50,324 bases of DNA from Desulfonatronospira sp. (GTDB lineage: Bacteria > Desulfobacterota > Desulfovibrionia > Desulfovibrionales > Desulfonatronovibrionaceae): NCBI GenBank assembly GCA_007125075.1, contig SLDX01000078.1, positions 1-50,324 of the forward strand, written 5' to 3'. Below are positions 23,430 through 50,324 of this stretch, in pieces. Below the pieces are notes generated by a model, which was given only the letters and a program-made list of their open reading frames with translations, was not told the origin of the DNA and searched no databases. Each line of letters begins with the position of its first letter. Within the stretch, counting starts at the first letter, position 1. The position numbers and the translations under genes are program-made.

Positions 23430-24731
23430 ATGAAAATATGCATGTTCACCAACACATATCTGCCCCATGTCGGAGGGGTGGCCAGGTCGGTGGCCTCGTC
23501 CACCGAAGACCTGATCAAAATGGGACATGATGTTATGGTCGTGGCCCCGACTTTTCCGGATTCAACTCCTGAAATTGATGCCCGGCACCAGGTCCTGCGC
23601 GTGCCCGCCCTGCAGAATTTCAACGGCAGCGATTTTTCCGTGCGTTTGCCTCTGCCCTTTACCATCAATAAGGAGGTCCAGAATTTCGGACCTGAGATTC
23701 TGCACAGCCACCATCCGTATCTTATGGGCGACTCTGCCCTGCGTCTGGCCAGACAGTATGATCTGCCCCTGGTCTTTACTCATCATACTCTCTACGAGCG
23801 CTACACTCACTATGTTCCTTTTGATTCAAAGACGATGAAGCGCTTTGTCATCCACCTGTCCACCGAATACGCGAACATGTGCAGCAGTGTGGTCGCGCCA
23901 AGTGACAGCGTAGCCGGGATGCTCAGGGAGAGAGGAGTGACTGTGCCGGTTGAAGTGATTCCTACAGGGGTGGATATTGATTTCTTCGCAGGAGGACAAA
24001 AAGAAAAATTGAGAAAATCACTGGGGATCGGCCCGGACATAAAGGTTATCGGACACTTGGGGCGCCTGGCCCGGGAAAAGAACCTGGACTACCTGAGCGA
24101 GGCTGTGGTCCATTATCTCAAGGAAGATCAAAACGCGGTCTTTTTGGTGGCAGGGTTGGGGCCGTACCAGGAGGATATGCAAAAGATCTTTGAGCAATCC
24201 GGCCTTGCTGACCGGTTCATACCGGCCGGGAAAATGACCGGACAGGATCTGGCGGACGCCTACAAGGCCATGGATCTTTTTGTTTTTTCTTCTCAAAGCG
24301 AAACCCAGGGCATGGTCATCGCCGAAGCCATGGCCGCGGGCAGGGCGGTTATAGCCCTGGACGCTTCAGGTGCGCGTGAGATCGTTGAGGACAATGAAAA
24401 TGGAAGGCTGCTTGACGCAGAGTCTTCGCCTTCTGAGTTCGCCCAGGCCATTAAAGAGTTTTTCCAGGATGGTGAAAAGAGAAAGAATTGGGAAAAGAAA
24501 GCAATTGATACTGCAAAGCTTTTTTCCAGGGAGACATGTTCACGCAGACTAACAGGCCTTTACGAAAATGTTCTGGCAACATTCGTCAGGGAGCATGGTC
24601 AGACTTATGAAAAGCTGATTTTCTGGGATTCTCTGCTGCGGGGCATAAAGGCACAGTGGCAGGTGCTTTCGCGAAAGACATCGGCCGCGGCAAGCGTGCT
24701 CAAGGCAAAAGATGAAGGCCTTGATCAATAA
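23430..24731 (+). CDS. Family 4 glycosyltransferase
   Basis: GT-B retaining glycosyltransferase using a nucleotide sugar; relatives include diacylglycerol glucosyltransferases and PimB-type mannosyltransferases. The N-terminal Rossmann domain starts MKICMFTNTYLPHVGGVARS and contains HSHHPYLMGDSALRLAR. The C-terminal domain has VIPTGVDIDFF, GHLGRLAREKNLDYL and the donor-binding EX7E motif in SQSETQGMVIAEAMAAG (two Glu 7 apart). Length is 433 residues, slightly extended at the C-terminus by a basic helix that could associate with membrane. A CGGAGG site precedes the ATG at about 11 nt. It is in an operon with the six-hairpin glycosidase. Donor and acceptor are unknown. Confidence 0.9.
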   Translation: MKICMFTNTYLPHVGGVARSVASSTEDLIKMGHDVMVVAPTFPDSTPEIDARHQVLRVPALQNFNGSDFSVRLPLPFTINKEVQNFGPEILHSHHPYLMGDSALRLARQYDLPLVFTHHTLYERYTHYVPFDSKTMKRFVIHLSTEYANMCSSVVAPSDSVAGMLRERGVTVPVEVIPTGVDIDFFAGGQKEKLRKSLGIGPDIKVIGHLGRLAREKNLDYLSEAVVHYLKEDQNAVFLVAGLGPYQEDMQKIFEQSGLADRFIPAGKMTGQDLADAYKAMDLFVFSSQSETQGMVIAEAMAAGRAVIALDASGAREIVEDNENGRLLDAESSPSEFAQAIKEFFQDGEKRKNWEKKAIDTAKLFSRETCSRRLTGLYENVLATFVREHGQTYEKLIFWDSLLRGIKAQWQVLSRKTSAAASVLKAKDEGLDQ

Positions 24732-48758: not shown

Positions 48759-48933
48759 GACAGGATCTCCTGAACAAAAAGTAGTGAATAGATATTTTTT
48801 GCATGGAACTCCCAACCATATTCAGAGGTCAGCCTTCGGTCAGCAAGAGCTATGTTTACTGTTCAAGGGAATAAAGAGCTTGTCAAGATGGAAAAAGAAC
48901 TGCGCACACGCACCAGGTGTACAAAAAATGATA

Positions 48934-48971
48934 TTGACAACCATAAATAAATATATAAACGTTCATTTATG
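48934..48971 (+). promoter_or_regulatory. Candidate promoter/operator with dyad for the ArsR unit
   Basis: TTGACA (48934-48939) is followed by AT-rich DNA and overlaps a 7-bp inverted repeat CATAAAT (48942-48948)/ATTTATG (48965-48971). ArsR/SmtB regulators bind such AT-rich dyads. A -10 at the right spacing is not clear, and the regulator gene starts 244 bp downstream. Confidence 0.4.
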
Positions 48972-49025
48972 TAAAATGGTGTTTAATTATTTGAAATTAG
49001 ATTAACCTCGCGCAAGGGAGGAAAT

Positions 49026-49199
49026 ATGTGGGTAACAATTTGCATTGCAGCCGGTACAGGTATTCCTTTGCCCGCGAGGATGTTCATAAGCTGTCTATCA
49101 GATGAGGAGTGGTAGGCATGAGAGATTGGAGATGATCCCTTGTGTGGGGATGCCCTGAAGTCTGATAAAGTTCAGCAACTATTGCGGGAAGTGACATAG
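49026..49199 (+). other. Small reading frame with two in-frame stops before the ArsR gene
   Basis: GGGAGG precedes an ATG (49026) that opens a 29-codon frame MWVTICIAAGTGIPLPARMF... ending in TAG at 49113; the same frame has TGA two codons later, then stays open to TAG 49197-49199 (GDDPLCGDALKSDKVQQLL), and beyond that stop it is in frame with the ArsR gene. It may be a decayed short gene or chance. No family recognised. Confidence 0.3.
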
Positions 49200-49214
49200 A
49201 TCAAGGAGAATGCC

Positions 49215-49544
49215 TTGTCCCGAATTCCAATGGAAACCAATATGGTCGGCCGGTATTTCAACGCGGCCCAACTGGCCAAATCCCTGGCCGATGAAAACAG
49301 GCTGCGCATCCTGGAATGTCTGGGAGAGGGCAGGCAGTCTGTGAGCGCTCTGGTGGAGAAACTGGGGCTTTCCCAGCCGCTTGTATCCCACCACCTGCGA
49401 GAACTCAAAAGGACCTGCCTGGTTCAGGTCAATCGCAAGGGTCCGTTCATATACTACCAGCTGAGCGACCACGCAGTACTGGATCTTGTAAGATCCATGA
49501 ATGAACTGGCAGGTCTGCTGATAACATTAAGAACTCATTTTTAA
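49215..49544 (+). CDS. ArsR-family transcriptional regulator
   Basis: Winged-helix dimeric repressor of 109 residues. AKSLADENRLRILECLGEG and VEKLGLSQPLVSHHLRELKR (recognition helix about 52-65) are typical of ArsR/SmtB. The classic ELCVCD metal site is absent; the only cysteines are at 35 and 68, so it is not a standard arsenic sensor. The wing ends GPFIYYQLSD. Start is TTG 49215 with AAGGAG 7 nt upstream. It precedes the Sec-type gene by 150 bp and likely controls it. Confidence 0.88.
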   Translation: MSRIPMETNMVGRYFNAAQLAKSLADENRLRILECLGEGRQSVSALVEKLGLSQPLVSHHLRELKRTCLVQVNRKGPFIYYQLSDHAVLDLVRSMNELAGLLITLRTHF

Positions 49545-49694
49545 TTGTATAAACCTGAGCTGTGATCCCGCGCTTGCTTTCCGGCTGCTTCGGCCGTGCG
49601 ATGAAATAGATATTTCAAAATTGAGTGCTGGACAGTGGCAATAGGACTGTAAAATGATCTCACAGATTCAGGAATAAAATTCTGGAGAAAGGCT

Positions 49695-50168
49695 ATGGCA
49701 GATTCCAAAGAGTTTTTTCAGGGTCAAATGAAAAGGATGGCCGATTTTATGGAACCCACAGAGGCCCTTGAGGTTTTGGGGACGGCCGCAAGAAGCCTGA
49801 TCGCACAGATGGATGAGGAACAACGCGTAGATTTTATTCTGGGCCTTCTGGGCGACGAGGACAGCGACAAAGTCTCCAGCATGGTCCATTTGTGAATGGC
49901 CAAATGTCTGGACGAAGGTGTCGATCCAACTCAGATGTGCAAATCCCTGGTGGACAGAGTTTCCAGGTCAGAGGTGCTCAAAAGCATTGCCGAACCTGAA
50001 CTTTTGACCCTGTTTGAGGACTGGCTGGAGGAGCTGGAAAAGGAGTTTATCGCTCAGGCGCAGCGATCCGGCAGCAGTGATCCGGTCCTGATGGCCGGAC
50101 AGCTGGGCGTTAGCATTGCCGGAGCCCAGTTTTTGAAGGCCAAGCTGGAGCAGGAAGGCAAAATATAA
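49695..50168 (+). CDS. Unrecognised helical protein, probable selenocysteine at position 67
   Basis: A single frame of 157 residues if TGA at 49893-49895 is read through. No known family is recognised. The sequence is acidic and helical, with no signal peptide or membrane helix. The TGA lies in VHL-U-MAKC, a U-X3-C pair (67 and 71) with another Cys at 82; the C-terminus (about 120-157), QLGVSIAGAQFLKAKLEQEG, has the look of a winged-helix or HTH segment. A hairpin follows the TGA at 49909-49928. The alternative is two separate genes, with the second ATG directly after the TGA, but that ATG has no ribosome site and the two parts are in one frame without overlap. GGAGAAAGG precedes the first ATG. 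Its neighbours, an ArsR regulator and an exported protein, suggest a redox or metal response. Confidence 0.6.
49909..49928 (+). promoter_or_regulatory. Candidate SECIS hairpin in the unrecognised gene
   Basis: TGGA-CGA (49909-49915) pairs with TCG (49921-49923) and TCCA (49925-49928), with a bulged A at 49924 and loop AGGTG. It begins 13 nt and its loop 20 nt after the TGA, as in known bacterial SECIS elements. Confidence 0.6.
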
Positions 50169-50184
50169 GTAACAGGGAGTTGTT

Positions 50185-50324
50185 ATGAGCCTTAGACGGA
50201 TACTTATCCTGACTGTCCTGTCCCTGTTCATTTCCGGGGCAGCCTTGTGGGCGACTCACGCGCAGTTCGAATTTGAGGAGGCCACCTGGGAGGAGGTCCT
50301 TCAGGAAGCTGAAAAAGGCGGCTA
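50185..50324 (+). CDS. Exported protein, possibly thioredoxin-like (cut by window end)
   Basis: Only the first 46 residues are present. A signal peptide is seen (LRRILILTVLSLFISGAALW, cleavage near THA), then FEEATWEEVLQEAEKGG, a helix typical of the beginning of secreted thioredoxin-fold proteins. AGGGAG precedes the ATG, and it lies 16 bp after the Sec-type gene, so it is in the same operon. Its fold is a guess until the rest is read. Confidence 0.6.
   Translation, partial: MSLRRILILTVLSLFISGAALWATHAQFEFEEATWEEVLQEAEKGG

Follow-up and report, generated by a model that had tools for sequence, protein, structure and literature searches.

A tsoA selenoprotein gene in an ArsR-headed Tso operon of Desulfonatronospira sp. 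and its possible link to sulfane sulfur

Gene content of the tso locus

The window analysed here is a stretch of 50,324 nucleotides from a Desulfonatronospira sp. contig. Its right-hand end carries a gene for an ArsR/SmtB-family regulator, a reading frame of 157 codons with a single in-frame TGA and the beginning of a third gene that is cut by the contig end (Table 1). Apart from this TGA at codon 67 the central frame is open throughout, as stated in the preliminary description, and its start follows a good ribosome-binding site (CTGGAGAAAGGCT-ATG). Scanning of positions 48800-50324 against Rfam found nothing.

Table 1 Features of the tso locus in the window
Feature	Position	Strand	Basis
TTGACA, possible -35 element beside the operator-like site	48934..48939	+	sequence
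Operator-like dyad ATATAA-N8-TTATGT, proposed TsoR site	48953..48972	.	consensus ATATAA-N8-TTATAT
tsoR, ArsR/SmtB-family regulator	49215..49544	+	NF045707; Pfam HTH_5
tsoA, 157-residue selenoprotein	49695..50168	+	NF045695 match spanning the TGA
UGA, predicted selenocysteine 67	49893..49895	+	TGA in 77/77 copies, Sec machinery in genome
Bacterial SECIS-type hairpin, loop AGGUG, bulged A at 49924	49909..49928	+	synonymous conservation, one covarying pair
5' end of tsoB, signal/membrane segment before rhodanese domain	50185..50324	+	cut by contig end

Read through the TGA, the central protein scored 192.2 bits against NCBIfam NF045695 (cut-off 170), and the alignment runs across the TGA from residue 13 to 155 of 157, or from 2 to 144 of the 144 model positions. 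The model bears the name 'LULAXC motif selenoprotein TsoA'. The Sec position, the U-x3-C motif and the neighbours TsoR and TsoB agree with the family as well; the motif itself differs slightly, reading L-U-M-A-K-C, a third-position variant common to the same-genus copies and two others. A Pfam search yielded no family matching TsoA, and a sequence search of the PDB gave nothing convincing. The protein had initially been described as an undescribed selenoprotein matching no family, which does not hold, since NCBIfam models for both TsoA and TsoR already exist. A 2026 review (PMC13188914) lists TsoA together with TsoB, TsoC, TsoX and TsoY, explains Tso as 'three selenoprotein operon' and credits Haft & Tolstoy 2025. 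The gene is thus a well-supported new member of an already catalogued family, ordinary in kind, of sulfate-reducing bacteria and their relatives. This family was named only recently and is uncharacterised, and standard ORF calling splits its genes at the UGA.

The regulator preceding tsoA, correctly recognised before as an ArsR protein, is TsoR, with 138.7 bits against the NCBIfam model of that name (cut-off 115) and a Pfam match; an alternative ATG start is possible at 49230. The 'exported protein' reported downstream is indeed present: it is the N-terminal 46 residues of TsoB, a selenoprotein in which rhodanese and DsbD parts are fused, and is 67% identical to TsoB of a same-genus genome. 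The remainder of TsoB was located at the end of another contig of the same genome, C1 (83% identity, residues 323-580), beside the gene for TsoC, which contains one TGA. The assembly lacks about 276 residues of TsoB, among them the U-x4-U site that is present in the loci read. All three genes, tsoA, tsoB and tsoC, are therefore found in the genome, with the operon parts on two contigs and their join inferred. On C1, tsoC precedes genes for a membrane protein and for two glycosyltransferases, TIGR04283 and TIGR04282 (C1:789-2600, L111), whose family names refer to 'arsenosugar biosynthesis', after which a thioredoxin-like protein is encoded on the other strand.

Decoding of the in-frame TGA

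Relatives of TsoA were collected from 58 loci in GTDB contigs and from 15 of 101 genomes, our own genome included, and the motif could be read in 77 homologous copies, 66 of them distinct in DNA. The preliminary description proposed to look for homologues with Cys or Sec at position 67: all 77 copies have TGA at this codon and none has a Cys codon. Cys-containing homologues are of help in recognising selenoproteins, though not a requirement; none was found in the GTDB contigs or the 101 genomes, and in this material TsoA occurs only with Sec. Homology extends through the TGA without a break. The invariant residues include V64 on its N-terminal side and, on its C-terminal side, A69, C71, G75, D77 and P78 as well as L106-F107-E108 and W110-L111-E112-E113; Cys82 is found in 62/63. 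The U-X3-C pair noted earlier (U67 and C71) thus belongs to the invariant positions, together with D77-P78.

The machinery for Sec insertion, which the earlier reading had proposed to look for, was also recovered. The genome (2.17 Mb, 97% complete) encodes tRNA-Sec (80.9 bits), selA, selB and selD, all over their family cut-offs. selA was present in 14 of the 14 TsoA-positive relatives searched; this is consistency and not correlation, because it was also present in nearly all TsoA-negative ones. The selD gene of this genome (C47:24435-25361, L108) itself contains one in-frame TGA; Sec-containing SelD proteins are known.

Could the TGA instead be a true stop, or a sequencing or pseudogene error, leaving two separate or broken genes? 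An ATG comes at once after it, and the minimum free energy of the adjacent hairpin is not unusual. This ATG, however, has no ribosome-binding site, in line with the earlier remark on a separate second gene; all 77 homologous copies, which come from many genomes, have the TGA at this codon, the protein is conserved on either side, and in no copy with a readable motif does the protein stop at the TGA or begin at the next ATG. With the Sec machinery encoded in the genome, such an explanation is hardly credible, and the stop-codon, pseudogene and two-gene readings of tsoA were rejected on grounds of homology.

Beginning 13 nt after the TGA, the transcript can form the hairpin described before, with seven pairs, one bulged A and a G-rich loop (UGGA CGA (AGGUG) UCG a UCCA). 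The codons that form it are nearly unvarying over 65 loci: Gly is GGT in 65/65 cases (17% elsewhere in the same genes), Glu is GAA in 64/64 (55% elsewhere) and Val is GTC in 63/63 (29% elsewhere). Among 53 distinct sequences, 96.8% of pair cells were paired, compared with 93.8% in shuffled and 14-43% in slid controls. Pair 20-33 occurs as G-C (29 sequences), A-U (20) or G-U (4) and is broken in none of the 53, a Gly/Asp change being matched by a synonymous GAC/GAT change; on the TsoA tree this amounts to about three switches, too few independent contrasts for significance. Folding energy by itself was not significant (z -0.06), and support for the hairpin is comparative, coming from the conserved synonymous codons and the one covarying pair. 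Its distance from the TGA is right for a SECIS element. In SECIS elements of the E. coli fdhF type, a short stem carries a loop that contains G and lies about a dozen nucleotides after the UGA, within the coding frame; the tsoA hairpin shares this layout and differs in the exact stem and bulge.

Taken together, the interrupted gene is almost certainly tsoA, which leads the selenoprotein genes of a Tso operon (tsoR-tsoA-tsoB-tsoC); SelB and tRNA-Sec would read its UGA 67 as selenocysteine at the in-frame hairpin.

TsoR and the operator-like site

The dyad upstream of tsoR is the only match to its consensus in the 50-kb window at one mismatch or fewer, where 0.07 would be expected. The same pattern, counted at a threshold of at least 10 of 12 positions, precedes tsoR in 39 of 58 loci against about 1.6 expected from dinucleotide-block shuffles, a significance somewhat inflated by the choice of the pattern from the same loci. 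In several relatives TTGACA likewise occurs just before the dyad; the TTGACA of the window was not scored as a promoter in a consensus scan. From this arrangement we infer that TsoR may autoregulate the operon through the dyad. About 245 nt separate the operator-like site from tsoR, and this leader contains a short ORF (about 30 codons, 49026-49117) preceded by GGAGG; in two same-genus copies the distance from site to gene is about 30 nt.

The TsoR family is labelled as a metalloregulator, yet Cys is conserved nowhere: none was conserved among 62 copies, and 30 of the 62 have no Cys at all in the aligned region. A metal-responsive unit, as suggested earlier, is therefore unproven. TsoR resembles the sulfide- and persulfide-sensing repressors BigR and SqrR in belonging to the ArsR family and heading an operon with a rhodanese-type protein, but it scores far below the cut-off of the BigR model NF040642 (53.5 against 155 bits) and lacks their two conserved regulatory cysteines. 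BigR needs a conserved Cys42/Cys108-type pair (PMC5823870). Since TsoR has no conserved Cys and 30 of the 62 sequences are Cys-free in the aligned region, alignment indicates that a Cys42-Cys108 switch of the BigR type cannot be the general mechanism of TsoR.

Putative role of the Tso operon

Among the 66 distinct tsoA loci, 62 have tsoR upstream, whereas tsoB was detected in 41 and tsoC in 40. Downstream sequence of at least 3 kb was available for 50 loci, 18 of which have no tsoB, and 16 of these 18 have a TsoX, DsrE-family, TusC-like or SQR-like gene nearby; loci of the same clades are not independent in these counts. The SQR-like neighbours score far below the NCBIfam cut-off (91 against 525 bits), and the TusC match is also below its cut-off. 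A search of our genome with the TsoX and TsoY models gave no match, nor did the controls.

The predicted structure of TsoA is all-helical (pLDDT 81.8, pTM 0.41), and with this pTM the packing of domains is unreliable. From about residue 108 to 157 the model shows an HTH-like core of three helices (Z up to 7.7, rmsd 1.0, 49 residues), which upholds the helical part of the C-terminal winged helix proposed before; no wing strands are predicted. In Foldseek searches TsoA matched just the HTH core (best E 0.49), which is so widespread that, as modelled, it points to no function; for residues 1-100 no functional inference is therefore drawn. Neither the Foldseek nor the PDB sequence search linked TsoA to a sulfur-transfer protein. 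TsoC, in turn, was modelled with a thioredoxin-type fold (pLDDT 88.5) and its best fold matches are thioredoxin-like. ArsD, an arsenic chaperone with a thioredoxin fold, was among the fold matches.

Comparison of the sequences establishes the Sec-encoding gene family, the conserved hairpin, the operon and the operator-like site. The identity of TsoA, its Sec decoding and a redox role at the level of the operon are, as a whole, highly probable, and the earlier view of a selenoprotein in an ArsR-headed redox cluster is strongly supported. As to what the operon does, our best mechanism is tentative: an autoregulated thiol/selenol relay that handles sulfane sulfur. TsoR would repress the operon from the palindrome near the promoter, and upon induction TsoB, TsoC and TsoA together would form the relay. 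TsoB would contribute a rhodanese domain with U-x4-U (probably periplasmic), a DsbD-type membrane part and a thioredoxin domain, TsoC would act as a small thioredoxin-fold selenoprotein and TsoA as a small all-helical protein with U-x3-C. This relay may take up, pass on or reduce sulfane sulfur, i.e., persulfide, polysulfide or thiosulfate sulfur, between periplasm and cytoplasm. The basis of this proposal is that TsoB has rhodanese- and DsbD-like parts, that TsoC is predicted to adopt a thioredoxin fold and that the TsoB-less loci have neighbours that handle sulfur.

The substrate of the relay could instead be an arsenic or selenium species. The arsenosugar-named genes in our own operon, with the membrane protein before them, would be equally compatible with a role in the detoxification of arsenic or of something else, and the affiliation of the regulator with the ArsR family and the ArsD match of TsoC point in the same direction. 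An operon handling arsenic or selenium oxyanions, for detoxification or for organo-arsenic synthesis, is nevertheless unlikely: TIGR04282 was detected in only one of the 66 loci and the TIGR04283 probe had no match elsewhere, as far as probes made of single own-genome sequences and many short locus contigs allow, and no Cys for As(III) is conserved in TsoR. Similarly improbable is a general antioxidant or peroxide-type function of TsoA with no link to sulfur transfer. Sec proteins are mostly oxidoreductases, and about ten loci have a thioredoxin-reductase-like gene close to tsoA; against this, the fold search gave no peroxidase match for TsoA, and tsoA is strongly linked to TsoR and usually to the rhodanese-bearing TsoB.

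A further reading, rather more doubtful than these, is that the operon senses redox state or persulfide through TsoA, which would switch TsoR. The Sec67/Cys71/Cys82 site would react with the signal, and the C-terminal HTH-like domain would contact TsoR or its operator. It is suggested by tsoR-tsoA being the most constant pair (62/66), with tsoB and tsoC varying, and by about half of the TsoR proteins being Cys-free. If true, TsoA would be a selenoprotein acting as co-regulator of an ArsR repressor, which to our knowledge would be new.

Our search found no experiments with Tso proteins. With the operator-like site, a TsoR poor in Cys and neighbours that handle sulfur, 'function unknown' becomes a set of testable questions, namely what induces the operon and whether it moves sulfane sulfur.

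Other TGA-containing frames were noticed in the course of this analysis. In one locus (L010), an ORF of the DsrE family that carries a TGA in frame (DFYV-U-GVC) lies 684 nt beyond the TGA of tsoA; L018, L027, L045, L046, L059, L061 and L062 have comparable ORFs near tsoA. The first half has a weak match to Pfam DsrE, and no NCBIfam model was matched. DsrE-like selenoproteins are known, and these ORFs probably belong to them. In our own genome, two rhodanese-like stretches with one in-frame TGA each (C132:23025-23408 and 23943-24356; L093, L095) are possible further selenoproteins.
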